From IMG/VR virus record IMGVR_UViG_3300042562_002450, positions 62,001-126,000 of that record: 64,000 bases of DNA. One strand, written 5' to 3'. Below are positions 20,439 to 35,642 of this stretch, piece after piece. Source of the stretch: a virus. The position numbers and the translations under genes were made by a program. Each line of letters opens with the position of its first letter. Positions within the stretch are counted from its first letter, which is position 1. Under the pieces are notes generated by a model. That model had not been told where the DNA came from. It saw only the letters and a list, made by a program, of their open reading frames with translations, and searched no databases.

Positions 20439-21485
20439 ATGATAAAACCAGTTGGCCTAGATGTTGGTACTCATATGTTAATTGCTTCTGAAGCTGATGC
20501 TTCTGGAGAAGTAACCTATAAAGAACAAGTTGATGCATTTTTTGTAATGGAATCAACAGATGAAGCAAAAAACATGCTAGACACACTCTCTGTCCCTTAC
20601 TCTGAAAAGAATGGAAAGACATATGTACTAGGTGAAGAAGCTAGAAAATTTGCAAATATGTTTAAGCAAGAGACTCGCCGCCCAATGCAAACGGGATGTC
20701 TTAATAAAAAAGACATTGAAGCACTTGGAATGCTTAACGCACTACTTTCTAATCTGCTAGAAAATGGCAATGGTTCCCCTATCGTCTATTCAGTCACATC
20801 TCAGCCATTAGGTAGTGAGATGAGCTTTGACTATCACAGGGCTCAAGTAGAGTCTCTATTAAAAGGAATGGGATATGAACCTAAGCCTATTCAAGAGGCT
20901 AGGGCAATTGCTCTCGCTGAGTTGGCCGCTGATCGCTTTACTGGTCTTGCTATCTCTTGTGGATCTGGCACTACCACTGTTTGGCTTGGTTTGTTGGGAA
21001 TGGATAATCCAAATTTTCAGTTTTCCATTGATCGTGGTGGTGATTGGATTGACACTAATGCTGCTGAGAATTTTGCCGGATTGACAAGAACTAAAGTTCA
21101 GACAGTAAAAGAGCGTGGCATTAAAATTAAAGAATATGAAAATGTTGAGACAGACCATCTTTCTGGCCATGAGCTTACTGAAGCTAGAGCTAAGCAAGCA
21201 CTATCTATTTACTATAGAGAGTATATCCGAGCTGTAGTTAAAGGTATTAAATATAAACTCGATAAAGAACAGCTACCTGAGTTTGATGGACCAATTCCAA
21301 TTGTTATTGCAGGTGGAACTAGTTCTCCTTCTGACTTTGTAGAAGTCTTCAAAGAAGAATGGGACAAAGCAAAGACTGGGCTAGATATCTCTGAAATCAG
21401 AAGAGCTAATGATCAATTCCGAGCTGTGTCTAAAGGTTGTTTAATTGCTGCTCAGCTTGAAGCAAAAAAGATGCTTAAGAAATAA
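20439..21485 (+). CDS. actin-like ATPase (ParM/MreB-type fold), 348 aa
   Basis: The actin/Hsp70/hexokinase fold shows its three nucleotide-binding motifs in order. Phosphate-1 is PVGLDVGTHML (residues 4-14, Asp8). Phosphate-2 is AISCGSGTTTVWLGLLG (171-187). The adenosine motif is PIVIAGGTSSP (near 286-296). RGGDWIDTNAA follows phosphate-2 as in bacterial actins. The length is close to ParM and MreB. Such proteins form filaments that position DNA or phage particles, so this is a candidate phage cytoskeletal protein. It stands alone after a terminator, with its own AGGA site, and two unknown genes follow. A non-filamentous Hsp70-like role cannot be excluded. Confidence 0.75.
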   Translation: MIKPVGLDVGTHMLIASEADASGEVTYKEQVDAFFVMESTDEAKNMLDTLSVPYSEKNGKTYVLGEEARKFANMFKQETRRPMQTGCLNKKDIEALGMLNALLSNLLENGNGSPIVYSVTSQPLGSEMSFDYHRAQVESLLKGMGYEPKPIQEARAIALAELAADRFTGLAISCGSGTTTVWLGLLGMDNPNFQFSIDRGGDWIDTNAAENFAGLTRTKVQTVKERGIKIKEYENVETDHLSGHELTEARAKQALSIYYREYIRAVVKGIKYKLDKEQLPEFDGPIPIVIAGGTSSPSDFVEVFKEEWDKAKTGLDISEIRRANDQFRAVSKGCLIAAQLEAKKMLKK

Positions 21486-22633: not shown

Positions 22634-23692
22634 ATGATTATCTCAGATAGCATCAATATATACTTAAAGACCACAGAGACATGTAACTTGAATTGTGATC
22701 ATTGTTTTACCTCTGGAAGCAAAGGTAGGAAGATTTTTTTTAATCCAGAGAAAACATTTCTTTTTCTAGATAAGCTTTTTAGTCATCAGAAATACAAGCA
22801 TAAAAAAGTTATTCTTCATGGTGGAGAGCCGATGCTTGCACCTGCCTCTGATATTAGAAAGATACATAAGTTAATAAAAGATAAGTATCCTGAAACAGAA
22901 TTTAGTCTACAGACAAATCTAGTATATAAGTTAAACGAAGAGCGGCAATCCTTAATTGATGATCTTTTTCTTGAAAAAGGAATGGGAACATCTTGGGATT
23001 ACAAGATGAGATTTGCTTCTTATCAACAGCAGCTTCAGTGGGAAGATAATGTTCGAGCTCTACTAGCCAAAGGTCATTACCTTTCTGTTATGGTATCTTT
23101 AAACAAAGACTTACTTGATAACTTTGAGCCTGTAGATATCATTCAGTACTTTATTGATCTTGGGATTCAGCATGTTCTTTTTGAACGCATAACCTCTAAT
23201 GGTAACGCTCTACTTAATCCTAACATTCAGCCTCAGAATAAAGATCTAGATGCTTGGCTTCTAAAGATGTATGAACAGACAATAGAATATAAGCTCTATG
23301 ATAAAATCCATAATATGTTTCTTGATGAAATAGCTACGACTTATGTTAATAGGATCCATGCTGGAAACAGATGTAGAAACTGTGAACAAAGCCTAGTTAC
23401 CATTAATGCTGATGGTAGTCTTTCTGGATGTCCTAATAGTGCTGCTAGCGAATACTGGGGAAATATTGAATGGTCGATCCAAGAAAATCTTTCCTCTAAA
23501 AAAAGATTGAAGACAATGGCTTGTGAGCTTAAGCGAAATGATAACTGCCTAACTTGTCCTGTGAATAGTATCTGCAATGGTGATTGTCATAGACTCCCCT
23601 GGCAAGGTGATATCTGCGCGGCTCCCAAAAGCCTAATGAAGATGATGAAAGAACAAAATAAGATTGAAGATTACAGAAAGTTAATGTTATGA
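22634..23692 (+). CDS. radical SAM/SPASM enzyme A, 352 aa
   Basis: CNLNCDHC at 17-24 supplies the three Cys that bind the [4Fe-4S] cluster cleaving S-adenosylmethionine. HGGEP at 62-66 binds the SAM amino group. A Cys-rich C-terminal region from about residue 247 (RCRNCEQSLVTINADGSLSGC, then CLTCPVNSICNGDC and a late C) matches SPASM or twitch-type auxiliary cluster domains. Those domains are found in enzymes that modify peptides and proteins, such as RiPP maturases and sulfatase maturases. No clear ribosome binding site precedes ATG 22634. The stop overlaps the next start (ATGA), so the downstream gene is translationally coupled. Confidence 0.88.
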   Translation: MIISDSINIYLKTTETCNLNCDHCFTSGSKGRKIFFNPEKTFLFLDKLFSHQKYKHKKVILHGGEPMLAPASDIRKIHKLIKDKYPETEFSLQTNLVYKLNEERQSLIDDLFLEKGMGTSWDYKMRFASYQQQLQWEDNVRALLAKGHYLSVMVSLNKDLLDNFEPVDIIQYFIDLGIQHVLFERITSNGNALLNPNIQPQNKDLDAWLLKMYEQTIEYKLYDKIHNMFLDEIATTYVNRIHAGNRCRNCEQSLVTINADGSLSGCPNSAASEYWGNIEWSIQENLSSKKRLKTMACELKRNDNCLTCPVNSICNGDCHRLPWQGDICAAPKSLMKMMKEQNKIEDYRKLML

Positions 23693-24144
23693 ATTGGAAA
23701 ATGAGATCTAAGATATATCACATGATGACTCCTGAGCCAGGAGACAATCTTGAGAAAGAAACCATTGTTGAAGAGTGGGACAAAAAAAGTATTATAAAAA
23801 GAGCAATCGAATATCCAACTTTTCAAACTAAAGAGTTATATTATCCAGCGAAGTCATATGCAATTGCTACATTGTATGCTATTCTTTTGACTGAAAATTT
23901 TGGTGGCGAACCTCTTGATTATTTAAAAGATCCAGAATTACTTGCAGGAAATGATCCATATTTCAAACCTTACGATAGCTCTAATAAAGATATTTATTCA
24001 ATAATTTGGAGCCATATTTTTCTAGCATTGGAAGATGGTTCAGAAAAAACTTCTGAAAATTTTAATAAATCTGTACAATATTTCTACGAGGAATTTTTAC
24101 TTGCTGAAAATACAAAAGTCTACTTGCCTCCTGACGAAAGATGA
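23689..24144 (+). CDS. hypothetical protein coupled to radical SAM A, 151 aa
   Basis: Its start codon overlaps the end of the radical SAM gene by 4 nt (ATGA), and its end overlaps the following oxygenase-like gene. The protein is acidic and mostly helical, with Trp/Tyr-rich segments (PTFQTKELYYPAKSYAIATLY). I see no metal site or known fold. The coupling suggests a partner or substrate-recognition protein for radical SAM A or for the oxygenase. Confidence 0.6.
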   Translation: MNWKMRSKIYHMMTPEPGDNLEKETIVEEWDKKSIIKRAIEYPTFQTKELYYPAKSYAIATLYAILLTENFGGEPLDYLKDPELLAGNDPYFKPYDSSNKDIYSIIWSHIFLALEDGSEKTSENFNKSVQYFYEEFLLAENTKVYLPPDER

Positions 24145-24634
24145 AATCAATAGTCTTATCTATGACTATGATCTATATCTATCTAAGAGCTTTTACATAA
24201 TCAATAAAGAACGGAAAGAATACAATGAAGATAATCATTCTCCAGATTTTATGTCTCATATACAAAAACTTGAAAAAGCATCCGGTGAAGGCTGCACTAT
24301 CATTGTTAAGAATATGGAAAGATATAACAGCCAAATACAAGAAACGGCAGAAGAGCTAGCACCAGGAACAGACGTTCATCTTTACTTAGTATTCGCTGAA
24401 GAAAGTGGAGATAGTTTTAATTGGCATAGAGATGATAAACCAGTTTGGATAAAAATGATCTATGGTGAGAAATTTTTTTCAATTAGATCAAGAGCAAAAG
24501 AAACTGTTTTCATAGATTCCTATAAAGTAAAAGAAAATGGATACTTATATATTGGATTAAGAGAGCATAGAGCTGAACCAATGGGACCATCTGCTATGTT
24601 AAGCTTTGGCTTGCCCAATCAAGAAGATCTCTAA
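24101..24634 (+). CDS. JmjC/cupin-like Fe(II) oxygenase, about 178 aa
   Basis: The core WHRDDKPVWIKMIYGEKFF has the HxD pair of the iron site. It is followed about 40 residues later by YLYIGLREHRAEPMGPSAMLSFG, where His of REHRAE would be the third ligand. This order and the strand pattern resemble JmjC and ROXA-type protein hydroxylases (cupin fold, 2-oxoglutarate). TTG 24101 has GAGGA 8 nt upstream and is preferred; an in-frame ATG at 24035 would overlap the preceding gene by 110 nt. The 3' end overlaps the convergent radical SAM gene by 41 nt. Confidence 0.62.
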   Translation: MLKIQKSTCLLTKDEINSLIYDYDLYLSKSFYIINKERKEYNEDNHSPDFMSHIQKLEKASGEGCTIIVKNMERYNSQIQETAEELAPGTDVHLYLVFAEESGDSFNWHRDDKPVWIKMIYGEKFFSIRSRAKETVFIDSYKVKENGYLYIGLREHRAEPMGPSAMLSFGLPNQEDL

Positions 24635-25532
24635 AACCACTACATGATTTTTCAATTGATTTAACATCGCGATAATGTTCTGTTAAGCATCGTCCCAAGT
24701 AAGGACATGCTGAACATATCGGATTTGATTTAACCTTAGTCTTTTCTAATCTAGCCCATAACAAGTATTCGTTAAAGCTATCCATCTCAAAAAAGTACTC
24801 ATTTTGTTCCAGATCAAACTCGAGAACGCCAAACTTTCCATTGGGAGTAATATAAACATGGCTATCACTATAAGCAGAATATAAACCACTGAGACTATCC
24901 TTGATCCTGTTTTTATTTATAAATGTAAAGTTTTTACGAATAGGAGAGATTAACCATTGCTTAACAAATTCTTCATACTCCTTATCAGTTACAGGTAAGG
25001 TATTTGCTTGGTTAGATGAGTATGGCTTTATCTCAACTGAAACTACATTTTGATATGTATTAAGTATACCGATCATCCTGTTAATGTCTAATTTCAACAA
25101 GTTAGGTGATGCCAACATTAGTATGGCAATTGGTTTCGATATCTTAGCCATGTTACTAAGTACCAACTCATGCTTCTCTCTGGCTTCAAAATCTAAGCTA
25201 ACAGAAAGATCTACATAGTCATGTAAGAAATATGAATTTATTTTAGAAAGATTTGTGATAACACTTATGCTTGGTTTCGAATAAACATTTAAAATTTCAT
25301 CTAATTTTTCCAAATAAGTAGGAGAAAGCAATCCTACTTCTCCACCATACAGATCTACGTGCTCTATGTAATAGCCATGGCTTCTTATCTCTTCAACCAT
25401 TGCAACAAGCCTTGATGGATCTAGTTTCTTTTGATCAGCTAATTGTTCTGGTCTAAGATAACAAAACTCACATCTAAAGTTACAAAGATATGTTGGATTT
25501 AAAGATATTGTTAATGGCTTAGCAGAGTCCAT
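24594..25532 (-). CDS. radical SAM enzyme B, 312 aa
   Basis: CNFRCEFC at 17-24 is the CxxxCxxC cluster motif and DLYGGEVGLL near residue 60 is the GGE SAM-binding element. A short Cys-rich C-terminus (ICSACPYLGRC, then SCSGF) suggests an auxiliary Fe-S cluster. The protein is smaller than A, C and D and has a distinct substrate region. It is the second gene of a two-gene - strand operon, overlapping radical SAM C by 14 nt, so the two are probably made in fixed ratio. Confidence 0.85.
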   Translation of the reverse strand: MDSAKPLTISLNPTYLCNFRCEFCYLRPEQLADQKKLDPSRLVAMVEEIRSHGYYIEHVDLYGGEVGLLSPTYLEKLDEILNVYSKPSISVITNLSKINSYFLHDYVDLSVSLDFEAREKHELVLSNMAKISKPIAILMLASPNLLKLDINRMIGILNTYQNVVSVEIKPYSSNQANTLPVTDKEYEEFVKQWLISPIRKNFTFINKNRIKDSLSGLYSAYSDSHVYITPNGKFGVLEFDLEQNEYFFEMDSFNEYLLWARLEKTKVKSNPICSACPYLGRCLTEHYRDVKSIEKSCSGFRDLLDWASQSLT

Positions 25533-26538
25533 GTTCTATTGCTCTCTTTCTAAACTCTTTCATTTTGACACAGCTTTCTTCGACAAGATTGTGCCTCTTT
25601 AGATCTTGAACTGTTTTATAGCATCCATTACATATAATAAAGTTTGGACAAGAAAGACATTCTTCTTTTTGATACTGAATGTTATGATCTGACTGTAGTG
25701 GCTTAAAGAATTCTCCAGCCATCTCTTTTTCAAAATCAATAGGATATTCCTGATCATCTCCCAATGATCCACATGATCCATACTCATATCCACTTTCGGA
25801 AACAGGCTGCAGATTTCTTATTCCCTCATCGCATTTTCTATTCTGAGGACATGTTGTAAATTCAGAGCCTTTGAGTCTCATAAGCATTTGTTTGGTAGAG
25901 TATTCCCATTCAGATAATCCAGCCTCGTATACGTTCATGTATATCTCATACATGTAACCAATAGGGAAAGGTCTCCCTTCTCTACCTGATGCCATTGCAT
26001 AATTCATCTTGCATTCAGCGCCGATATGTTTCGCAAGCCTTACATTGTTTAGTGCAAGATGCTTGTTATCTTCCGTAATTACAGAAATGAAATGTGGAAC
26101 ATATCCAAAGTCACCTTTGAATTTGTCTATAACTTTTAAAAATATTTCCTCAGTAAAGACTTGTCCTGGTCGTATTTGTCGGCTATCGCCATAATGAAAT
26201 GAAGTACATATTTGAACCTGAGATTGACTAAAAAGTTCTCTCCATTTGTCTGGATGAAGCCAATAGTCCCATAAGTTAGTAGTAAAACTGATGACACAAT
26301 CTGTCATCTTTCTTTCTTCTAGCATCTTAATTATTTGCCAGTAATACTCAGGAGATACCATAAGAGGATCTCCTCCATTTACTATTATTGTTTTAGTTTC
26401 TGGGAATCTATCAAGAAATTGACGGACCTTGTCTATATCAAGATCATCGATCGGTTTATTAGATTTTGCAATCTCTGTTGAGCTACAGAACGTACATGAG
26501 AAATTACACCTTTGCGTTGGCTTAATGATGAGATCCAT
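25519..26538 (-). CDS. radical SAM/SPASM enzyme C, 339 aa
   Basis: CNFSCTFC at residues 11-18 binds the radical SAM cluster and NGGDPLM near 55-61 replaces GGEP with GGDP. The C-terminal third has several paired Cys (CPQNRKC, YGSCGS, ECLSCPNFIICNGC, ESCVKM), fitting a SPASM-type domain with auxiliary clusters. The gene starts at ATG 26538 with AGGAAAG upstream. It is transcribed away from the twin Cys-tail genes from a shared divergent control region. Confidence 0.87.
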   Translation of the reverse strand: MDLIIKPTQRCNFSCTFCSSTEIAKSNKPIDDLDIDKVRQFLDRFPETKTIIVNGGDPLMVSPEYYWQIIKMLEERKMTDCVISFTTNLWDYWLHPDKWRELFSQSQVQICTSFHYGDSRQIRPGQVFTEEIFLKVIDKFKGDFGYVPHFISVITEDNKHLALNNVRLAKHIGAECKMNYAMASGREGRPFPIGYMYEIYMNVYEAGLSEWEYSTKQMLMRLKGSEFTTCPQNRKCDEGIRNLQPVSESGYEYGSCGSLGDDQEYPIDFEKEMAGEFFKPLQSDHNIQYQKEECLSCPNFIICNGCYKTVQDLKRHNLVEESCVKMKEFRKRAIEHGLC

Positions 26539-26547
26539 GCTTTCCTA

Positions 26548-26576
26548 TTGTATTAAATTTTTAATTAATATATAAT
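26548..26576 (+). promoter_or_regulatory. sigma70-like promoter of the Cys-tail/radical SAM D operon
   Basis: TTGTAT (26548-26553), 17 nt, TATAAT (26571-26576), with the start expected near 26583. It drives the gene at 26631 (AAAGG site upstream) and probably the whole run to 31468, where gaps are at most 14 nt. Confidence 0.6.
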
Positions 26577-26581
26577 AACTT

Positions 26582-26610
26582 ATCATAGTATAGTTTACAC
26601 TAACTTTAAA
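26582..26610 (-). promoter_or_regulatory. divergent promoter for radical SAM C/B
   Basis: Read on the - strand: TTTAAA (26610-26605), 17 nt, TATGAT (26587-26582). It faces the radical SAM C gene and overlaps the predicted transcription start region of the + strand promoter, so the two promoters could interfere or be co-regulated. Confidence 0.45.
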
Positions 26611-26630
26611 GTGATTTTAAAGGCAACCAG

Positions 26631-27365
26631 ATGGCAATAGTAAAAGATGAAGGTATCACAAGAGAAGATATCATCAATAAATTTAACTTGAGAGTAAGAG
26701 ACTGGGTAGCTTCAAATGTTACTCTACTTGGAAATAGAACTTATACAGCAAGTCATTCTGTATGGAATGGAACTCCAGGTTGGAAAAATGGTGGTGACAC
26801 TTCAGGTCCTGCGTACAGAGTGACTAGAACATTAAACTCGACAGCAGCAGCACTTGCTCTTAATTCAACAAATGCTGGTGGTGCAACAGACTCAATATTG
26901 AATACAGACCGTATACTTTCTGAAGTAATGCTTACTAGTGATTTTACTCCTGACGTAGGTGCAGCAAATAGCACTGGGCATGTAATTAAAATATTAAGAG
27001 ACATGATGGCTTCATACTCAAGAGTTCACCAGATTCGTATTCAGAATATAGGAAATCTTACATTCTCAATTTCTGGAGTAGCAGGAACTATGCTGTCTGA
27101 TACTGGAGTTGCAATTGGAACGACAACCAGACCAACAGCTATTGCTTTGATGAATACAGATATGGATTTATATATAAATACTAATAATTTAAAAGCTGGT
27201 GGCACTCTTGATGCAGATAAGTTCAACAACTTTCTTGAAACATGTAGATCTATATGGCTTAATCGCTGTGTAAACTCAGGAGTGCTAGAAACATTTAACT
27301 TTAGCTATTGCCACTCATCATGTCATTCAAATGTTACTTGTTATAACTCAAGAGGCCGAAGGTAA
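26631..27365 (+). CDS. Cys-tail protein 1, candidate modified precursor/tail protein, 244 aa
   Basis: The N-terminal ITREDIINKFNLRVRDWVASN, an internal segment around IKILRDMMASY, and FLETCRSIW near the end are shared with the next gene. The last 18 residues are CHSSCHSNVTCYNSRGRR. The tail has three Cys, two His and several Ser/Thr/Asn/Tyr, a basic end and little else, unlike the Gly/Asn/Thr-rich body. A long leader-like domain plus a conserved residue-rich tail, next to radical SAM and 2OG enzymes, suggests a post-translationally modified substrate. The body could equally be a virion domain. This role is inference; no family is recognised. Confidence 0.75.
   Translation: MAIVKDEGITREDIINKFNLRVRDWVASNVTLLGNRTYTASHSVWNGTPGWKNGGDTSGPAYRVTRTLNSTAAALALNSTNAGGATDSILNTDRILSEVMLTSDFTPDVGAANSTGHVIKILRDMMASYSRVHQIRIQNIGNLTFSISGVAGTMLSDTGVAIGTTTRPTAIALMNTDMDLYINTNNLKAGGTLDADKFNNFLETCRSIWLNRCVNSGVLETFNFSYCHSSCHSNVTCYNSRGRR
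27288..27365 (+). other. conserved C-terminal tail coding segment, copy 1
   Basis: The 25 codons from GAA 27288 encode ETFN, then a Phe, then the SYCHSS and SNVTCYNSRGRR parts of the shared tail. Compared with copy 2, ten codons differ silently and one changes Phe to Tyr. Selection is therefore on the peptide, not on the DNA. Confidence 0.8.
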
Positions 27366-27369
27366 AGTT

Positions 27370-27987
27370 ATGTCTATTATTTTAAATAATACAATTACTA
27401 GAGAAAATATTATTGCAAAATTTAATGAAAGAGTTAGAGACTGGGTAGTCTCTAATACTAACTTCTTAAATGCGACTCCAGTATGGAATCAAACTGTTGG
27501 TTACATAACAGCAAACAGCTCAGCTTTTGGTGGAGGTATTAACCGGATAACAGAAGTTTCGGCTACTCCAGTTTCTATTCAGGTCACAGATTTAATATCT
27601 AACATCGGTGCTGATAATTCAGCTGCAGGAAAAATCGTAAAAGTATTAAAAGATTTCTTAATCTTATATGCAAATAATCATAGAATAACATTAAACAATA
27701 CTGGGAATCTTGCTCCAGCAAATTATGTTGGAGTCGCAAGACTTAATGGAACGCCACTTGCAACACAAACTGCAATAGGAACTGATGTTGACGCTGCAGC
27801 AATTGCAAGTAATGTTTCTAATGGTCAACTTATAACTGCATTAAATCTTAATAGTTTTATTGAGTCATGTAGAACAATTTGGACTAATAGAGCATTCACT
27901 CCAAGCTTAGAAACATTTAATTATAGTTATTGTCATTCATCGTGCCACTCAAATGTTACTTGTTACAATTCAAGAGGTCGAAGGTAA
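27370..27987 (+). CDS. Cys-tail protein 2, paralogue of protein 1, 205 aa
   Basis: The preferred start is ATG 27370, behind GAAGG, which falls in the last codons and stop of the preceding gene. An earlier ATG at 27331 would read over the preceding tail. It shares with protein 1 the N-terminal ITRENIIAKFNERVRDWV, IESCRTIW and the same last 18 residues CHSSCHSNVTCYNSRGRR. The middle is shorter and strongly diverged. The two genes are clearly duplicates kept together, with the tail the most constrained part. Confidence 0.78.
   Translation: MSIILNNTITRENIIAKFNERVRDWVVSNTNFLNATPVWNQTVGYITANSSAFGGGINRITEVSATPVSIQVTDLISNIGADNSAAGKIVKVLKDFLILYANNHRITLNNTGNLAPANYVGVARLNGTPLATQTAIGTDVDAAAIASNVSNGQLITALNLNSFIESCRTIWTNRAFTPSLETFNYSYCHSSCHSNVTCYNSRGRR
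27910..27987 (+). other. conserved C-terminal tail coding segment, copy 2
   Basis: The 25 codons from GAA 27910 encode the same tail as copy 1, with Tyr in place of Phe at the fifth position. The final codons CGAAGG-TAA also provide a ribosome binding site for the following gene, as in copy 1. Confidence 0.8.
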
Positions 27988-27995
27988 GGTTATCT

Positions 27996-29132
27996 ATGGA
28001 GAAAACCTTAATAAACAAAGATGGCCCAAAGAGTATTAATGATTTCTTGAAGATCAAAGAGTCATATAAAACAAAAGACTCAATGCTTCTCTCTATATTT
28101 AAAGAGAAGACTCCACCTTATACTGAGATTGAAATTTCTTTCTTTGAACTATGCAATCTACATTGTCGTTTTTGCTGGCAAGATAATTATAATCCCACTG
28201 GAATTAATTCAATTAAAGAAAAAGCAGAAATTGTAATCGACTATCTAGATAAGCAAAAGGAAAGGCTACAGCCAAATATTCAAGTACACATGCTTGGTGG
28301 TGAGCTCTTTGAAGATAGCAATGATTACTATGATCAGTATTATTCTTTTATTAGTTCTATTTCTGAATATGTAAAAGCTAAAATGCCTGAAAAACATTTA
28401 CGCTTTGTCTTTTTAACTAATATGAATTTTCAAAAAGATGAGACCAAAATGAAGCTGGAGCATTTCCTCTTAAAGCTTCAACTTAAAGAAATTAAGTTTA
28501 TTCTAACTACATCTTGGGATCCAACAGGTCGCCCACTCAAAGGTGATATTGAGACTCAGTTCCATAAGAACATTACTTACTTTAAGGAGTATCTAAGTGA
28601 GGTAACTTTCGTATTAACGAAATCAACAATAAACCGACTTTTACAAGATAAAAATGATTACCTTGATCTATTAGTAAATCAAGGCTTTAACATCGATTAT
28701 GATTACTATATGCCCACAACCTGGGTTGATCAAATGATGCCTAGTGATAGAGATCTGCTTAATGCCTTTAGGTATCTAATTTATAAATATCCAAATATCC
28801 GTAAGTTAAAAGCATGGACAAGCAAGGAACCTGGAGAAGGAACTATCAGTTGTGCTAGCCTTAATAAGATAACAATACTACCAGATGGTACTATTACTAA
28901 CTGTAGACATCTTAAATATGATCAAAAAGATTTTGAAAGCAAGGTGCAAAATGAATCAAATAGTGATATGATTCTAACCTATCTATCAAAGCGCGAGTGT
29001 TTAAACTGCCCTTACTTTAAGGAGTGTCCTCTAAGTTGTTTCCTTATGGCTGATCATAAGAAATTTAATGGAAACTTAGAGCTTTCTGAGTGTCTTTATA
29101 GTATCCTTTTTAAGGAAAAATATAAGAGGTAA
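27996..29132 (+). CDS. radical SAM/SPASM-like enzyme D, 378 aa
   Basis: CNLHCRFC at 53-60 is the CxxxCxxC motif, set after an N-terminal extension of about 45 residues that could bind a substrate. HMLGGELF supplies the GGE element. The C-terminus has LPDGTITNCRHL and CLNCPYFKECPLSCF, with one more Cys, as in SPASM or twitch domains. ATG 27996 is 8 nt after Cys-tail protein 2, with AAGG upstream, so this enzyme is the one most directly linked to the twin proteins. The earlier ATG 27930 lies inside the preceding gene. Confidence 0.87.
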   Translation: MEKTLINKDGPKSINDFLKIKESYKTKDSMLLSIFKEKTPPYTEIEISFFELCNLHCRFCWQDNYNPTGINSIKEKAEIVIDYLDKQKERLQPNIQVHMLGGELFEDSNDYYDQYYSFISSISEYVKAKMPEKHLRFVFLTNMNFQKDETKMKLEHFLLKLQLKEIKFILTTSWDPTGRPLKGDIETQFHKNITYFKEYLSEVTFVLTKSTINRLLQDKNDYLDLLVNQGFNIDYDYYMPTTWVDQMMPSDRDLLNAFRYLIYKYPNIRKLKAWTSKEPGEGTISCASLNKITILPDGTITNCRHLKYDQKDFESKVQNESNSDMILTYLSKRECLNCPYFKECPLSCFLMADHKKFNGNLELSECLYSILFKEKYKR

Positions 29133-29134
29133 AT

Positions 29135-29866
29135 ATGAATACTAAAACTTTAATTAAAACATTGCCTTTATCAACTGATGATTTGATTTCTCTTTTTGAT
29201 AATCCAGGCCAGATCTTAGATATTGATTATTCTAAATCATCTTTAAAGGATGATGCATTTTTTGCATATGTTTCTAATGTTAAGATTCAATGTCGTCTTC
29301 ATGGTTATGAGGATCTCTCCTATAATGAAAAAGAAAGATTATTAAATTCATTTATTAATTCAAAATATACAATGGAAATTGAAAATCTAAAAGAAACTAT
29401 TGTTGGTATTCTACTTAATGCAGATCCTAAAAGTATTTCTTTTTTCAAAGAAGATGAAATTGAAAAATACAAAGTAGAAAATAGAGATAGATTAAATCAG
29501 CTAGTTCAATTTTTTAATTCAATGCTAATAATGATTCCATCTATATCTAGTGATTTTAAGAAACTCTTTATAGACACAGGGATAGAGGATGGCTCAATAG
29601 CAGAGATTGATGGAACTGATTTTATAACTCCAAATATTTATAACTTAACTTTTTATCCAGGTTTTATTGATCTCTTTATTGGCAATCAAGAAGAAGAACA
29701 TTCTTTAGTCTTTTACAAAGGTGTTATCGATAGCTACCAATATAAAAATAAAAGCTTTTTCTCTCTTCTTACTGATAATGAAACAGCACCAAATCTAATT
29801 ACAATTTTTAATTATTTCTTTATTGAAAATGAAGAAAGTGAAAAAGAACTAAAAGAAGCCATCTAA
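29135..29866 (+). CDS. hypothetical protein in the radical SAM D operon, 243 aa
   Basis: It begins 2 nt after radical SAM D, with AAGAGG in the end of that gene as ribosome binding site. The sequence is acidic and mixed alpha/beta (LSTDDLISLFDNPGQILDID near the start, YNLTFYPGFIDLFIGNQEEE later) and ends in a very acidic helix. I recognise no domain. Operon position suggests a structural, recognition or assembly partner of the Cys-tail proteins. Confidence 0.65.
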   Translation: MNTKTLIKTLPLSTDDLISLFDNPGQILDIDYSKSSLKDDAFFAYVSNVKIQCRLHGYEDLSYNEKERLLNSFINSKYTMEIENLKETIVGILLNADPKSISFFKEDEIEKYKVENRDRLNQLVQFFNSMLIMIPSISSDFKKLFIDTGIEDGSIAEIDGTDFITPNIYNLTFYPGFIDLFIGNQEEEHSLVFYKGVIDSYQYKNKSFFSLLTDNETAPNLITIFNYFFIENEESEKELKEAI

Positions 29867-29880
29867 CAAAGGTAAAAAAT

Positions 29881-31011
29881 ATGATCCACTTCCTAGGTAA
29901 AGTATTCCTTGAATATACTGAAACCAAACCACAACTTGACCATATGACTGTAAAGCCATCTCAATATATAAGAATTGTAGATAGAGGGCTTGCTAACATT
30001 ATGGATAGTTACTCAATCAATAAGCACATTGCAAACTTTAAAGATGTAGAAGAATGTCTTGAGAAATTCGTAACATTTGATAATTTTATTTCTTTCCTTA
30101 ATGAGAAAGAAAAAGAAGAAAGAGTTATTATTTACTGTGATGAAGTCTCTATGCCAAAACTTCTTTGTAGTCTTTGGAAGAGTATCTTCCCTGGCATAAC
30201 TAAAGAAATTGCATATAGTTTTTATGTCTCATATAAAGACAATGAATACTTCAGAAGAGATGACAGAAATGAGTATATTGAGATAGATATTAATAGTGCT
30301 AAAATAGAAAAGACAGCATTCCTTACTCGTTACTGGGACTTAGATAGAGAACTTTTTTATTCTTATTTTGATAATGCAGAATCTTTTAGTCTTGAGAATA
30401 AAGAAACAGCAATTGGCCTTGAGTTTGCCTTCACCAAGTTATTGCTAGACAATGAAAGATTTAAGCCTGTTTTTTCTGAGAAGTTAGAATATCTATATAA
30501 AAAGAATATCTCTAAAGAAATCATTTTCATGATCTCAACTATAAGAGAACATTGTCTTATTCTTCTAAGAAAAAAAGGAATAATGAATGAGATCATGCTT
30601 AATGACACATCGGTAATCGACTATCTTAAAGGACAGGAAAGATATAATATTCTTTTTGATGGGAACGTTAAGCATGCACCAGAGACCTATGATTATCTTA
30701 GATCTAAAGGAAACATTTTAAAACTTATTTCAGATCTTACATTTGACTGTTCAGTTATCCACAAAGAGATAAATCCAAGTTTTGTTTCTTTTGAAGAATT
30801 TAAACAAGAAAATCCAATTTGTTCATATATTCTTGAACAAAAGAAAGAACCTATTCTTGAAGACTTAATGGATGCTAATATTCTTAAGTTCTCTAATTAT
30901 CATTTCATTAGAAGTTATGTACAAACTGGTATTTTTAATTACTTTCTTCTTCAGTCTATTTGCATTACAAATGAAGCCAACCCTTCAGCACTAGATGCTC
31001 TTAAAGTCTAA
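29881..31011 (+). CDS. hypothetical protein in the radical SAM D operon, 376 aa
   Basis: ATG 29881 follows AAAGG. The N-terminal 130 residues include FVTFDNFISFLNEKEKEERVIIYCDEVSMP, a beta-strand/acidic pattern, and the rest is largely helical. No cluster, iron or nucleotide motif is visible. The 3' end overlaps the next gene by 17 nt, so translation is probably coupled. It could be a large scaffold or substrate-binding protein. The function is unknown. Confidence 0.65.
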   Translation: MIHFLGKVFLEYTETKPQLDHMTVKPSQYIRIVDRGLANIMDSYSINKHIANFKDVEECLEKFVTFDNFISFLNEKEKEERVIIYCDEVSMPKLLCSLWKSIFPGITKEIAYSFYVSYKDNEYFRRDDRNEYIEIDINSAKIEKTAFLTRYWDLDRELFYSYFDNAESFSLENKETAIGLEFAFTKLLLDNERFKPVFSEKLEYLYKKNISKEIIFMISTIREHCLILLRKKGIMNEIMLNDTSVIDYLKGQERYNILFDGNVKHAPETYDYLRSKGNILKLISDLTFDCSVIHKEINPSFVSFEEFKQENPICSYILEQKKEPILEDLMDANILKFSNYHFIRSYVQTGIFNYFLLQSICITNEANPSALDALKV

Positions 31012-31468
31012 TCAGCTACTTAATAGAATCAATAAGGAAGGATTTGTATTTGCAGAATACGATCCTTCTTTAATACAATATCTTCAATCTCATGAAGATA
31101 GAATTCTTATTCTAAAAGAATGGATTAAAGAGATAATAGATATAGAAGGTGAAACTCTGTATGCAGACTGGGAAGCTCTAGATAAAGACCAATCCATCAA
31201 GCTCCATTATCATGTTATCCCTGGATCTTTTCAAGCAGTAACATGGGTTCCTGAAAATAACTTTGAAGGTAGAGAATTCCTATACGGCATAAAGGATGAA
31301 ATCTTAAAGGTAAAGCCCAGACTGGGTCTTATTTGTTTCTTTAAACCAAATGATGAAAACTATATACATGGAGTGGCTCCACTACTTAGCGACACTAAGG
31401 TCTATAGCTATGGCTTTACTAGTTCAGTTTTGGATATTTCTCAAACAGAAAATGATATTTACGTATGA
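30995..31468 (+). CDS. 2OG-oxygenase-like protein with altered iron site (HxH), 157 aa
   Basis: The C-terminal half aligns well by eye with the oxygenase at 33743-34327 (EGREFLYG / VGRDLHIV; KVKPRLGLICFF / KVRPIPGLLCFI; ENYIHGV / ENTYHGV). The iron pair HTD of that protein is HYH here (His71, His73), with the distal His125 kept. Loss of the acid is seen in some 2OG halogenases, which have Ala or Gly at that position, and in inactive members. His is unusual and could still bind metal. It is the last gene of the + strand run and overlaps the convergent oxygenase by 10 nt. Confidence 0.6.
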   Translation: MLLKSNQLLNRINKEGFVFAEYDPSLIQYLQSHEDRILILKEWIKEIIDIEGETLYADWEALDKDQSIKLHYHVIPGSFQAVTWVPENNFEGREFLYGIKDEILKVKPRLGLICFFKPNDENYIHGVAPLLSDTKVYSYGFTSSVLDISQTENDIYV

Positions 31469-32298
31469 ACATAACTGCTAAGCAGGATAACTTCTTGATC
31501 GGCTTTTAGCTTCTCGACTTTATGAACAAATCTTGGATTATAAGTATTTAAGAATAAGACCATTCCATCTTTAATTTCAATTTTAGTTTCTTTAATTATA
31601 TTTCCACTTCTGCAAATACCTTTCTGGTCTAACTCTATTGTTAAGAGATCTCTTTCTCCAATAACTAGTTCTCTTCCTTCTATCTTTTTAGAGTTAGAGA
31701 AGTAATTGAATATCATATAATAGACCCCAGGTGTGTAATCCATATGGAAACTATACGGTCCTCTTGTGTCTAATTCATTTTCTTTATATCTGTACTTCAG
31801 AGCATCTGTAGATATTATTCTCCTATCTAATCTTAATGGTCCAGAATACTTAGGGACATTAAGAACTATATAGTTTAACTCTTCAGCATTTGAATTCAAT
31901 ATACTTAATGGTAGGTTGTCATCTTTAAAAAAGACAATGCTGTTTATCTTTTCTCTTACCTTTTCATGCACATCATAGTGAGCTACAAAGTAGCCATCAT
32001 GTTGCATGTCGCGCCAAAAGTAATCAAAACTATTTTTCTTATTACCAATGAAAGAGATTGGGATAAAGCTTCCAGCTTTATACTCTGATGAGCTATCTTT
32101 ACTATAGATTTCGTCTATATAGTATCCATCCTCTGTGACCTTAATGAATTCAAATTCAAGATTAGGTAGGAATACCATCTCTCCATAAAGATCCGTAAAA
32201 TAGGAATAAAGCCATGACTTTTTAAATTCATCAGGAGTTCCAAACCAGCCCTTACCTTTAGTAAAGAAATTAATAGTTTCTGGTGTCATTAGTCCCAC
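31459..32298 (-). CDS. 2OG-Fe(II) oxygenase-like protein, 279 aa
   Basis: The core YSFHMDYTPGVYYMIFNYF carries the HxD pair (His185, Asp187) and NPRFVHKVEKL the distal His259, about 72 residues later. EGRELVIG and IKDGMVLFLN strands fit the double-stranded beta-helix. The N-terminal 180 residues are an extra domain of unknown role. It is the fourth gene of a four-gene - strand operon and overlaps the preceding gene by 29 nt. GTG 32298 or ATG 32289 may be the start; neither has a strong ribosome binding site. Confidence 0.7.
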   Translation of the reverse strand: MGLMTPETINFFTKGKGWFGTPDEFKKSWLYSYFTDLYGEMVFLPNLEFEFIKVTEDGYYIDEIYSKDSSSEYKAGSFIPISFIGNKKNSFDYFWRDMQHDGYFVAHYDVHEKVREKINSIVFFKDDNLPLSILNSNAEELNYIVLNVPKYSGPLRLDRRIISTDALKYRYKENELDTRGPYSFHMDYTPGVYYMIFNYFSNSKKIEGRELVIGERDLLTIELDQKGICRSGNIIKETKIEIKDGMVLFLNTYNPRFVHKVEKLKADQEVILLSSYVHT

Positions 32299-32827
32299 TT
32301 TTTATAAAAAAGTTAACTCTGTATGTATATCTATCTACTGGTGTTGGTAGTACTGCATGTGGATGTGTATAGAAGGTTGGCATAATAATCATTCTTCCGG
32401 CTCTTGGCTTTATAACTAAAGATTGTTTTGGAAAGACAATTTCTCCTCCTTCAATATCTTGGAGGTAAAGCAAGACTATAAAATTTCTCCTTAGTCCACC
32501 TTCAGAGATCTCATTATCGTAATGCATAGTCAAACCAGTGCCAGTCTTTAGTTTTAATAGCATACTATTTTCCAAATAATACTCAGCTTGAACCGTACCT
32601 ATTGATTGGAGATATTTGTCTACTTCCTTCTGGGCTAGTTCTCTAACATTAGAGTCAAAAGCTTTTAAGCTTTGAATCTTATCTAGGTTCATGAACTCAT
32701 GCTGCTCTCCATCGAAATTGATCTCTTTTGTTTTTCTTTGAAGATTTTCTTTCTCTAATGAAAAAATAAACTCTTCACAGGATTCTTTAGATATTAAATT
32801 ATCAATTTGGCGTATGAAGGTTTCCAT
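32270..32827 (-). CDS. prolyl-4-hydroxylase-like 2OG-Fe(II) oxygenase, 185 aa
   Basis: The clearest oxygenase of the group. MHYDNE gives His102 and Asp104, HPHAVLPTPVDRY gives the distal His (157, or 155) and Arg166 for the 2OG carboxylate, and GGEIVFP is the usual central strand. The P4H-like core fills residues 85-175. Enzymes of this type hydroxylate Pro or Lys in proteins, or small molecules. Its ATG overlaps the stop of the upstream gene (TAATG), so translation is coupled. Confidence 0.85.
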   Translation of the reverse strand: METFIRQIDNLISKESCEEFIFSLEKENLQRKTKEINFDGEQHEFMNLDKIQSLKAFDSNVRELAQKEVDKYLQSIGTVQAEYYLENSMLLKLKTGTGLTMHYDNEISEGGLRRNFIVLLYLQDIEGGEIVFPKQSLVIKPRAGRMIIMPTFYTHPHAVLPTPVDRYTYRVNFFIKSGTNDTRNY

Positions 32828-33750
32828 TATCTTTTTAACTTTATTTGATCAACAATAGAATGCATACTTAAGTGAGAAGGAATACTGTACATCTTTCCAG
32901 GCCCATGGAACTCTGAAACCTCATGATAAAAACGCGGATTAAAAACATTAACAAGAACACTGATGTTGGTATCTGCCCATATCTTATTCTCTTCTTTTCT
33001 ATCTGCAACTATATTATTTGTAGCTTCCCAGTCTTCGGTTATTATTGAATGAAACATATAATCATACCAGTCATAACTTCCAGTACATAAATAACGAGAA
33101 CCAGAGTTTTCTGTATTATAACTAACCATATTTACAAACATACGAAAATCAACATCATTATGAGGTAATATACTTCGTCCCTTGTTCCACTCTAAAGCGA
33201 TACAATCAAAGGCATCCATTGAAGACAATATTGGAGAAAAGCTAACTACTCGCTTCAGTTCTTTTTCTACATTCTTGTAAACATCTCGACATGTACTATT
33301 TTGGAAGTTTGGTTTTCCCCAAGCATTAGAATTGAATTTTAAAGTTTTAGATGGCTCTGTAGCTCTTTCACAACCAAGATCACTAAATGGTAGTCTTGGA
33401 AGTTTGTATAGTGTATTTTCAATATATGCTCTTGTATTGTTAGCTATAGCATATCCATGAGTAGATAATGCTGAGCCTATATTGCTAAATTCAATATCTC
33501 CCTTATTAAAGTTAATACCTTCAAAAGTAATATACTGATCTGAAGGATCTCCATACTCTTTGAATACATTCTCAAGTAAACGTACAAAACCTTGCTTTTT
33601 TACAATCTTAATAAAACCAGAGCTAGAGACTACAAGTTTTTTCTTATAAAGCATTTCAAAATATTTACAAAGATCAGACTCGAAGAATTCTTCAATGTTT
33701 CTAATATCAACAATATTGTAATCAAAGAAGTCTTTGGCAATCTTAAGCAT
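32827..33750 (-). CDS. 2OG-Fe(II) oxygenase-like protein, 307 aa
   Basis: Residues 193-285 hold the core: SILPHNDVDFRMFVNMV with His197 and Asp199, and VFNPRFYHEVSEF with distal His276. The NPRFYH segment is very like NPRFVH of the neighbour at 31459-32298, so the two are related, but this protein has a different N-terminal half of about 180 residues with several Cys. The substrate is unknown. It overlaps the upstream gene by 8 nt. Confidence 0.7.
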   Translation of the reverse strand: MLKIAKDFFDYNIVDIRNIEEFFESDLCKYFEMLYKKKLVVSSSGFIKIVKKQGFVRLLENVFKEYGDPSDQYITFEGINFNKGDIEFSNIGSALSTHGYAIANNTRAYIENTLYKLPRLPFSDLGCERATEPSKTLKFNSNAWGKPNFQNSTCRDVYKNVEKELKRVVSFSPILSSMDAFDCIALEWNKGRSILPHNDVDFRMFVNMVSYNTENSGSRYLCTGSYDWYDYMFHSIITEDWEATNNIVADRKEENKIWADTNISVLVNVFNPRFYHEVSEFHGPGKMYSIPSHLSMHSIVDQIKLKR

Positions 33751-34327
33751 GTAGCTTCTTTTCTTTTAGATTAATGCTATCTCTCCATTCCCTTGAGTTG
33801 ATGCCAATGCCACCTATGATTACATATAACTCTGAGTCAGAAGTTAGTTCTGTTACTCCATGGTATGTATTCTCAGCAAAAGCATTAATAAAACAGAGGA
33901 GACCAGGTATGGGCCGAACCTTTAAATTGTAATCAGGACTGACAATATGAAGGTCTCGCCCAACAAAGGTATTGTCTTTAGGTATGTAAAGAAGAACCTC
34001 ATATGGATTGATTCTGCCCTTATCAGTATGCAAGGGAAGCCCATCTCCTTTTGTGTACTTATCTATGCCAAATTGGAATGACTGTATATCATTTTTTATT
34101 TGGTCATCTACTGATAACTGGCTAAGTATTAGATCTTTGATCTTAATATCTAAGTCCTTATCTACTTCCATTATCTTGTACTTAATATCTTCACTTGGTT
34201 CTTCATCCCCAGCATATTTAAGAGAATCAAGATAATCTACAAAACCTTCTGGAATCTGTATCTTAGTGAAAACAAAGTCATTCTGAACCAAATCAGTATA
34301 AGTTATATCTTTCTTTTTAAATAGCAT
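33743..34327 (-). CDS. 2OG-Fe(II) oxygenase-like protein, 194 aa
   Basis: First gene of the four-gene - strand operon. PLHTDKGRINPYEVLLYIP carries His100 and Asp102; ENTYHGVTEL carries His156. The strands VGRDLHIV and KVRPIPGLLCFINAF complete the fold. The C-terminal basic residue that binds 2OG is not obvious. It is closest in the window to the HxH variant at 30995-31468, suggesting a duplication followed by loss of the acidic ligand there. It starts at ATG 34327. Confidence 0.72.
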   Translation of the reverse strand: MLFKKKDITYTDLVQNDFVFTKIQIPEGFVDYLDSLKYAGDEEPSEDIKYKIMEVDKDLDIKIKDLILSQLSVDDQIKNDIQSFQFGIDKYTKGDGLPLHTDKGRINPYEVLLYIPKDNTFVGRDLHIVSPDYNLKVRPIPGLLCFINAFAENTYHGVTELTSDSELYVIIGGIGINSREWRDSINLKEKKLHA

Positions 34328-34374
34328 AGGTAGTTTCTTCTTTTGTTCTACAATCTTAACATTAAAAAACTAAA

Positions 34375-34403
34375 TTGCAATTCCAAAAATACCAGATTAT
34401 AAT
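34375..34403 (+). promoter_or_regulatory. sigma70-like promoter, apparently for a leaderless mRNA
   Basis: TTGCAA (34375-34380), 17 nt, TATAAT (34398-34403). The expected start falls at or next to the A of ATG 34410, and no ribosome binding site lies between. Both boxes are in palindromic sequence (TTGCAA and GATTATAATC), in the divergent gap between two oxygenase genes. Confidence 0.6.
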
Positions 34404-34409
34404 CACTAA

Positions 34410-34949
34410 ATGATTACCAAACATGGCACGATACTATATGGACATAAAGTCTTTTCTGATACTTTTTGCTGGAAAGCAATTGACTCGATGACTTCTCAAA
34501 ATAAATTAAATAGAGGATATGGAGCAGAATGTTTTGATCTTGATATAACTCAATCCATGATAAGTGAGATAAAGAATGTCTTTACTGAAGCAAGGAAATC
34601 TATTGAGATACCTCCATTAATTATAAGAAATAGAGGAGAGGTTCTCAAGTATACTCCAGGTATGAAGCTAGATACTCATTTTGATATTCCATACTGCAAA
34701 GATGACTTCTATCCATTCGTAACTGTGATTAACTTAAACGAAGGATATGGAGGAGGTCTTTACTTTGACTGTGCTGATTTAGAAATAGAAGGAATGGGAT
34801 CTATCGTAATGACCCCATCTTCTTTTATGTCAACTCACTCAGTAAGAGAAATAACTGGAAAAGATAGATACTCTTTGCTATTGGATATTACATATCCCGA
34901 AATGCTTGAAAAGTGTTCTGGAAAAAAAGAAGATTGGATATTTATCTAG
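34410..34949 (+). CDS. prolyl-hydroxylase-like 2OG-Fe(II) oxygenase, 179 aa
   Basis: LDTHFDIPYCKDDFYPFVTV gives His90 and Asp92, SFMSTHSVREITGKDRYSLL gives the distal His143 and Arg153, and GGGLYFD is the central strand of the P4H-like fold. All residues needed for iron and 2OG binding are therefore visible. It stands alone on the + strand, divergent from the oxygenase operon, and overlaps the convergent small gene by 4 nt. The start at ATG 34410 lacks a ribosome binding site, fitting the leaderless promoter just upstream. Confidence 0.82.
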   Translation: MITKHGTILYGHKVFSDTFCWKAIDSMTSQNKLNRGYGAECFDLDITQSMISEIKNVFTEARKSIEIPPLIIRNRGEVLKYTPGMKLDTHFDIPYCKDDFYPFVTVINLNEGYGGGLYFDCADLEIEGMGSIVMTPSSFMSTHSVREITGKDRYSLLLDITYPEMLEKCSGKKEDWIFI

Positions 34950-35245
34950 TCTTTCTTATTCATAATTCTAGTAACTAATGGAATTAAGTATGGTGATACT
35001 TCTATTCCTAATGCTATGATCTGTTCATTAGAAATGCCTGACATTTCTTTTGAAATATTATTAAGTCCTGAGAATCCATCTTTAACTTTTTTTAAGAAAA
35101 TCTTATCTTGTGTTAGTTTAGAATAAACAGAAATAAGGTCTTCAAGATCAGCTCCATCTTCTAGACGATTAAGAGCAAACTCAACAATAGAAACAAGTGC
35201 AATTATTGCTTCTTTTGTATCTTTAGTTCCAATATCAATACTCAT
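34946..35245 (-). CDS. small helical hypothetical protein, 99 aa
   Basis: An all-helical, weakly acidic protein (TKEAIIALVSIVEFALNRLEDGADLEDLI at the N-terminus) with a hydrophobic C-terminal helix ending in SPYLIPLVTRIMNKKD. In its helix pattern and size it resembles the 105-aa protein encoded upstream, and both may be distant paralogues. A strong terminator separates them. The function is unknown. Confidence 0.6.
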   Translation of the reverse strand: MSIDIGTKDTKEAIIALVSIVEFALNRLEDGADLEDLISVYSKLTQDKIFLKKVKDGFSGLNNISKEMSGISNEQIIALGIEVSPYLIPLVTRIMNKKD

Positions 35246-35324: not shown

Positions 35325-35642
35325 TTAGCCTTTTACAAGTTTAACAAGCTCTGCAATCCCAACAACTAGATCAAATGATTTCTCAATGATCTCTTCTGTT
35401 CTTTCAGATTTAAGAACAAACTTAGACTTAAGACTAGCAATTAACTCAGCTTTTTGCTCTGGAGTTGCAGAAGCAAGTTCATCTTTCGCAGCTTTAAAAG
35501 CTGAAAGAGCTGGACCGATTTGCATAGCTGGAGCCATGATGTGAGGGATATCCAAGAAGTCAACTTTGTTATCAGCCAAGACTTTGTCTACTGAGTTTGC
35601 AAAAGTAACTGCGAAATTAACGATAGTTTTTAAAGATTCCAT
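35325..35642 (-). CDS. small helical hypothetical protein, 105 aa
   Basis: ATG 35642 follows AAGGAGAATTCT, a strong ribosome binding site. The protein is helical and Ala/Lys-rich (VNFAVTFANSVDKVLADNKVDFLDI, then LSAFKAAKDELASATPEQKAEL). Its own terminator, strong ribosome binding site and promoter-like sequence suggest separate, high expression, as for an abundant virion or scaffold component. I recognise no family. Confidence 0.65.
   Translation of the reverse strand: MESLKTIVNFAVTFANSVDKVLADNKVDFLDIPHIMAPAMQIGPALSAFKAAKDELASATPEQKAELIASLKSKFVLKSERTEEIIEKSFDLVVGIAELVKLVKG

Follow-up and report, generated by a model that had tools for sequence, protein, structure and literature searches.

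The 64-kb window analysed here, by which we mean the whole of the stretch taken from the 198.6-kb virus record IMGVR_UViG_3300042562_002450, carries a cassette in which four radical S-adenosylmethionine (SAM) genes are joined by one of JmjC/cupin-like type, by three unnamed helpers and by two genes for proteins ending YCHSSCHSNVTCYNSRGRR, which we refer to as the Cys-tail proteins. The cassette probably brings about a chemical rewriting of a virion protein at its C-terminus, where a Cys-His-Xaa-Ser repeat makes up the final 16 to 18 residues. It is flanked by genes for a collagen-like fibre (10928–14293) and a further fibre (14708–18448) on one side and by a structural module from 35850 on the other, and thus lies between fibre modules as a preliminary description of this DNA had placed it; within this second structural module, families of virion structural proteins begin at 46035.

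Cys-tail protein 1 (26631–27365, plus strand; 244 amino acids with the C-terminus SYCHSSCHSNVTCYNSRGRR) and Cys-tail protein 2 (27370–27987, plus strand; 205 amino acids) are the presumed substrates. They share 38% identity overall and are identical over their last 20 residues, where the two genes differ by nine synonymous and no non-synonymous changes. The identity of the two tails as protein, despite this synonymous divergence and the 38% overall identity, demonstrates strong selection on the tail.

All four radical SAM genes are open reading frames encoding a CxxxCxxC motif, as first described: CNLNCDHC in radical SAM A (22634–23692, plus strand), CNFRCEFC in B (24594–25532, minus strand), CNFSCTFC in C (25519–26538, minus strand) and CNLHCRFC in D (27996–29132, plus strand). 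The GGE motif that had been listed for all four does not hold for C, which has GGD in its place. Three of the proteins pass the Pfam cut-off of 29.5 bits for PF04055 (A with 33.5, B with 34.9 and C with 39.1 bits); D falls below it with 21.8 bits and is a clear, full-length orthologue of the radical SAM proteins of other phages (33% identity, E = 2e-58). Radical SAM A is of the SPASM type (TIGR04085 33.2 bits, cut-off 27 bits) with cysteines invariant in both the CxxxCxxC and the SPASM parts, and its gene is usually found immediately 5' of the tail gene. All four are core members of the cassette, with C the best conserved.

The JmjC/cupin-like protein of Fe(II) oxygenase type, Cup (24035–24634, plus strand; HRD...H motif), had been reported at 24101, and while the protein is present its start lies upstream, at 24035 or 24059. 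Cup was found in 59 of the 80 loci picked by radical SAM C (see below) and is a core cassette member. In addition to the two Cys-tail proteins, which stand as first described, the locus holds three conserved unnamed genes that need to be added to that account. These encode Hz, a small protein (23689–24144, plus strand; PHROG 20737, E = 1e-25), and the helpers Hx (29135–29866, plus strand; PHROG 20767) and Hy (29881–31011, plus strand), which are present in 78 and 40 of 97 tail loci, respectively. An AlphaFold2 model of Hx was confident (predicted local distance difference test score, pLDDT, 87.6), and a PDB search with Hx gave no match.

Linkage between the tail protein and the cassette was examined in both directions. 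A degenerate DNA pattern for CHxSCHxSCHxxR[GS]R, run against IMG/VR and GTDB (11.3 million GTDB contigs), matched 101 IMG/VR stretches against 6 in GTDB genomes, and using profiles built solely from five reference cassettes we found cassette genes in 102 of 105 tail-selected loci, the remaining three being short or cut stretches. In the other direction, a relative of radical SAM C is encoded on 318 viral contigs, 80 of which we examined; the tail protein was present in 59 of these 80 loci picked solely by radical SAM C, and most of the others were short or ended before its position. Where radical SAM A and Hx or Hy occur on the same strand, the tail protein lies between or beside these neighbours in 45 of 46 loci (the exception is L204). 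The link between tail protein and cassette is therefore near-obligate both ways across unrelated phages, and the system extends well beyond the window, recurring in hundreds of phage contigs. These counts support the earlier claim that the radical SAM enzymes act on the Cys tails, and are the opposite of the pattern which the preliminary description had named as counter-evidence, i.e. tail homologues commonly found without the enzymes. We note that no related viral loci were found when window radical SAM A alone or the window tail protein was used as the query, and that strict patterns for the window's variant tail gave no match.

The same cassette is found in cultured phages. A search with just the 27 residues of the tail picked out Agrobacterium phage Atu_ph07 and its protein gp170; this match was not significant (E = 0.7) and was then validated by the gene neighbourhood (gp170 ends CHSSCHASCHNSRSRR and has radical SAM genes on its flanks). 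Tblastn searches of 50,697 phage records with radical SAM A, C or D recovered an identical seven records each time (Phosso, Atu_ph07 in two entries, FLC6, FLC8, SURPRISE13 and pPa_SNUABM_DT01, or DT01), and in all seven a CHxSCHxSCH tail protein lies inside the cassette. The whole window tail protein had no match in these records at E 0.01, and two marine tail proteins used as tblastn queries matched no cultured phage. BLASTP comparisons across the reference phages showed one-to-one orthology for radical SAM A (37–42% identity), B (45–50%), C (48–50%) and D (26–33%; FLC8_76 at 33%, Phosso_287, Atu gp168 and DT01_62), as well as for Cup (Atu gp172, Phosso_291 and DT01_67), Hz (Phosso_282, DT01_55 and FLC8_85) and Hx, and for Hy in FLC8 (FLC8_73, E = 8e-7). 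As Atu_ph07 is a T4-like relative of the Rak2 phages (PMC6102473) and FLC8 and SURPRISE13 belong to the Chimalliviridae (PMC11898562), the cassette crosses unrelated lineages.

The typical arrangement starts with Cup and continues through radical SAM A, the tail gene, Hx, Hy, radical SAM D, C and B and the oxygenases to Hz. In a second layout, seen mostly in marine loci, short tail proteins occur in tandem and as many as nine radical SAM genes are present. A divergent radical SAM family, which we call DT57-type, is represented by DT01 PA10_00057/58 (L016:6642-8673) and in many marine loci, with up to five or six copies beside the tandem short tail proteins. In Atu_ph07, the annotated start of gp164 (L013:16264-17175) is too far downstream, and extending the frame upstream restores CxxxCxxC. 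Two dihydrofolate-reductase-like genes (FLC8 gp77 and gp78, L015:15722-16937; so annotated in SURPRISE13) lie inside the Burkholderia phage cassettes, and these enzymes could add another tail modification. Finally, a tail protein with a re-ordered cassette was seen in a 382-kb contig binned as bacterial in a Halobacteriovoraceae metagenome-assembled genome (L122), which could be a jumbo phage or prophage; a search for a tail sheath in this genome gave no match.

In the reference jumbo phages the tail reads CH[S/T]SCHxSCHx[S/A]R[G/S]RR-stop, and the motif is 16 residues from the stop in all 135 proteins obtained from the DNA-pattern matches. A second, looser scan returned 79 terminal and no internal matches, with cassette genes in 63 of 64 loci. 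Cys and His are nearly fixed at tail positions 1–2, 5–6 and 9–10, followed by R-[G/S]-R-R, and the residue two places on from each His (i+2) is Ser, or rarely Asn, Ala, Asp or Lys, with i+1 free and Gly allowed there. It should be noted that the DNA pattern favoured Ser/Thr at two of the i+2 positions, and that the same rule was seen in loci picked by radical SAM C alone. The exceptions are instructive: in the window Tyr replaces the third His and only unit 1 is strictly His-x-Ser (most tails have this in units 1 to 3), Phe replaces the second His in L134, Tyr stands in units 1 and 3 of L267, whose unit 1 also carries Asp at i+2, and His-x-Ser is kept in L143 despite the lack of one Cys. We therefore take the rule to be an aromatic residue, any residue and a residue with a beta-carbon, preceded by Cys.

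The bodies of the tail proteins are about 125–320 amino acids in length and fall into several unrelated BLAST clusters. Amongst 56 aligned tail proteins the mean column identity was 28% and invariant columns were C-terminal only, with the residues preceding the tail alternating between hydrophobic and polar in a strand-like manner. A Foldseek comparison with viral models gave plausible matches only to the DT01 and Atu_ph07 Cys-tail proteins and to two proteins of Myoviridae sp. ctijX18.

The preliminary description had also held the modified target to be associated with the tail or virion, and this is supported, if indirectly, by the gene neighbourhood and by published work on Atu_ph07. The genes adjoining the cassette in ten sampled loci belong to tail-fibre, virion-structural or T4 gp15-like tail sheath stabiliser families. 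Mass spectrometry of Atu_ph07 virions placed most virion proteins in three gene clusters, one being 'CDS 170-215' (PMC6102473). The numbering agrees with the sequence record (gp198 is the portal and gp204 the prohead core), and coding sequence (CDS) 170, the tail protein, is the first of this cluster with its neighbours gp164–169 outside it. This strongly suggests that gp170 itself was detected in virions, and we consider it likely that Cys-tail proteins are located there. Next to the window cassette, a Volactin family actin-like protein (20439–21485; PF25216, 228.9 bits) is encoded immediately 5' and adjoins the tail-fibre genes. The collagen-like tail fibre at 10928–14293 has 160 Gly-X-Y triplets with Gln at Y in 99 of these, and the oxygenases described below make weak candidates for its prolyl hydroxylases given this frequency of Gln.

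Six 2-oxoglutarate (2OG) oxygenase-like proteins had also been reported in the locus. The motifs are as described, with HxD...H in five of them and HYH...H in the sixth, although only one protein passes the curated PF13640 cut-off of 27 bits. This is the 2OG-Fe(II) oxygenase at 32270–32827 (minus strand, 43.9 bits), while the protein at 34410–34949 (plus strand, HFD...H) falls slightly below it at 25.4 bits. For the others, Cup and the HYH...H variant included, the Pfam scan gave no oxygenase match and these are motif-level calls, as for the proteins at 31459–32298 (minus strand, HMD...H), 32827–33750 (minus strand, HND...H) and 33743–34327 (minus strand, HTD...H). The variant protein at 30995–31468 (plus strand) is a paralogue of the 33743 protein (38% identity over 60 amino acids), and both have a relative in another cassette locus, L189. 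Genes of 2OG type occur in 66 of the 80 radical SAM C loci, and the six in the window are mostly unrelated to those of the other loci and so largely lineage-specific. From this distribution they are best seen as exchangeable accessories and may possibly be separate from the cassette, which tempers the earlier suggestion of several chemistries including six oxygenases: the inference of a cassette chemistry is supported, and the share of the oxygenases in it is a weaker part. Two small unidentified minus-strand proteins (34946–35245 and 35325–35642) separate the oxygenases from the next fibre gene.

The tail units can be compared with the substrates of three-residue cyclophane enzymes, which form a bond between an aromatic ring and the beta-carbon of the second residue after it, the proven i/i+2 pairs including Phe-Ser for MscB, His-Ala for HaaB, both His-Arg and Tyr-Arg for YhhB, and Tyr-Asp for YxdB (PMC11002830). 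The tail fits this rule with three units of C-[H/Y/F]-x-[S/N/A/D/K] ending at the C-terminus. We think it very probable that the cassette acts chemically on the tail in some way, and suggest more tentatively that its units may become three-residue cyclophanes. We would give a probability of roughly 70% to the reading that the whole is a phage-specific maturation cassette for a virion protein, similar to those of ribosomally synthesised and post-translationally modified peptides (RiPPs). In this scheme the Cys-tail proteins would fold as small, fast-evolving tail-associated proteins ending in a strand and an exposed, nearly invariant C-terminus of 16 to 18 residues, made up of three Cys-aromatic-X-Ser/Asn units and RGRR. 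Inside the infected cell, radical SAM A–D, Cup, Hx, Hy and Hz would act on this C-terminus, and each aromatic-X-Ser/Asn unit (with His, or Tyr in the third unit of the window) would most likely be cross-linked from a carbon of the aromatic ring to the beta-carbon of i+2, with the Cys residues either cross-linked or serving as ligands and the variable 2OG oxygenases contributing extra oxidations. The matured protein would then be assembled into the virion beside the tail fibres, where we infer that a rigid, covalently locked tip might serve in host contact. The fullest form of this proposal, that large phages of several unrelated lineages share a crosslinking system which makes a polycyclic, covalently locked Cys/His tail-tip peptide for host attachment or penetration, has in our view an even chance of being right.

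A number of observations count against the maturation of a virion protein as set out above. Judged by profile scores, radical SAM A is not a member of a characterised family: its closest NCBIfam family is the cyclophane maturase YhhB, followed by the ranthipeptide enzyme PapB, and it scored 60.7 bits against YhhB (cut-off 445), 23.5 against XyeB (450) and 41.9 against FxsB (370). None of the cassette radical SAM enzymes can be assigned to a known maturase because all such scores are far below the family cut-offs. The chemistry of tail modification, the type of bond and the roles given to each enzyme are predictions from sequence, and the presence of gp170 in virions is taken from a cluster boundary. 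The AlphaFold2 model of the window tail protein, made with 56 sequences, reached a pLDDT of 68.7, a medium confidence, and nothing useful came from searching the PDB by sequence or by fold with the tail body. RiPPs in the strict sense have a short, leader-bearing precursor that is cleaved and exported, and the substrates here are far longer proteins (125–320 amino acids). Relatives of the 32270 oxygenase are widespread in phages without the cassette, with 249 phage records, mostly of cyanophages, compared to the seven for the radical SAM enzymes. An unmodified tail could also bind metal through its alternating Cys and His residues.

This last point leads to an alternative in which a tail-tip protein uses the tail to bind a metal or cluster (zinc, copper or iron–sulphur, Fe-S), and the radical SAM enzymes assemble this cofactor or put it in place instead of cross-linking the peptide. 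The three CH pairs per tail, the tandem copies and the invariant terminal R-x-RR are in keeping with this, and a metal-bearing tip would suit membrane puncture or a role as receptor-binding element; against it, a pure metal site needs no Ser/Asn at a fixed i+2, the replacement of His by Tyr or Phe and the loss of one Cys are tolerated (window, L134 and L143), and no known cofactor-maturation family scored above its own cut-off for the cassette enzymes in the NCBIfam profiles, so we regard it as unlikely. We also considered covalent haem binding (CxxxCH) by the tail and rejected this, as haem is attached to proteins outside the cytoplasm and such binding would give no reason for Ser/Asn at i+2. 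It is just as unlikely that the tail serves the cassette enzymes simply as a tag for recognition or as a docking peptide, with the tail protein an assembly adaptor and the true target another protein such as the collagen-like or another fibre. Fibre genes do flank the cassette, and collagens, which the Gly-X-Y triplets of the 10928 fibre recall, are classical targets of 2OG hydroxylases. However, this fibre has mostly Gln rather than Pro at the hydroxylated Y position, no one fibre family is common to the other cassette loci, and the residues of the tail repeat match the types that radical SAM peptide enzymes cross-link, with substitutions that preserve the aromatic/i+2 rule.

Two further explanations are less probable still. 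A C-terminal motif together with SPASM enzymes recalls RiPP pathways, and the tail might be cleaved and released as a small modified peptide, acting as a toxin, signal or superinfection exclusion factor, and so be a true secreted RiPP. Pfam, NCBIfam and PHROG scans of the window cassette found no recognisable peptidase or transporter, though, and the motif is carried on a folded body which in Atu_ph07 is grouped with virion proteins, making this quite improbable. Least probable of all is that the radical SAM genes are host-takeover genes for metabolism or surface sugars, placed close to the tail protein fortuitously or as mobile cargo. The 11 radical SAM genes of Campylobacter phage CP220 were explained as metabolic (PMC2853527) and Fe-S-rich marine phages have been noted earlier (PMC5332604), but CP220 has neither the tail nor cassette orthologues, and the near-obligate linkage in both directions in unrelated phages brings this explanation close to refutation.

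Maturation of the tail can be set beside several known systems. The triceptide maturases (YhhB, HaaB, MscB and XncB; 3-CyFE) also combine a SPASM-type radical SAM enzyme with a substrate that has aromatic-X-X repeats near the C-terminus, and their known i/i+2 cross-links from His, Tyr or Phe to Ala, Arg, Asp, Ser or Asn (PMC11002830) involve residues comparable to those of the tail. In contrast, the cassette is phage-borne and has not one radical SAM enzyme but at least four distinct ones, three helper families and scores far below the curated cut-offs, and its substrate is a large virion-linked protein with Cys before nearly every aromatic residue. The HxsABCD system shares C-terminal His-Xaa-Ser repeats and more than one radical SAM enzyme, but radical SAM B and C score only 16–27 bits, the best scores among the four enzymes were 24.7 bits for HxsB (cut-off 370) and 27.3 bits for HxsC (cut-off 267.9), and the Cys, the RGRR and the phage setting differ.

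Amongst phages, radical SAM 'gene cassettes' have been reported among the tail-fibre genes in the host recognition cluster of pelagimyophages, which are marine T4-like phages (PMC7029224), and these are possibly the same cassette; in the text of that paper as searched, neither a substrate nor a tail motif is named, and unrelated jumbo phages are not brought into the picture. Campylobacter phages CP220 and CPt10 are likewise T4-like and rich in radical SAM genes, which lie in an exchangeable module (PMC2853527), though we rejected CP220 as a relative as it has no cassette orthologues and no Cys tail. Its cluster (L209:20690-27721) is a different one with amidinotransferase and sugar-transferase-like genes. 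In FLC6, SURPRISE13 and RP12/RP31, the same or comparable genes are annotated singly as cupin, Fe-S oxidoreductase, radical SAM or 2OG oxygenase, and nothing in those annotations we consulted groups them into a single system, with the tail protein left as 'hypothetical'. Within the open-access literature (subscription papers were outside our scope) we found no description of the tail protein or cassette as one system, and a text search for the CHSSCH motif gave no relevant title among the matches listed.

Peptide maturation by radical SAM enzymes is known, and what would be new here is its occurrence on a virion-linked protein, in a phage-specific system with four conserved radical SAM enzymes and helpers. 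Over the past 15 years phages have been seen to carry radical SAM gene clusters, which were attributed to metabolism or Fe-S supply; they are here tied to a conserved, presumed protein substrate encoded beside the fibres, which, if correct, would explain at least some of the unexplained radical SAM gene clusters of large phages. The cultured phages FLC8, SURPRISE13, Atu_ph07 and pPa_SNUABM_DT01 carry the cassette and so the idea is directly testable in them. If it is true, these phages cross-link peptides to build part of the virion, using four or more radical SAM enzymes on three repeated units. They would then give enzymologists a new system that is ready for use, and would reveal a host-contact element overlooked by sequence-based fibre annotation. 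The tail would then represent a class of post-translationally built virion part with a chemistry unlike that of any known viral structural protein.

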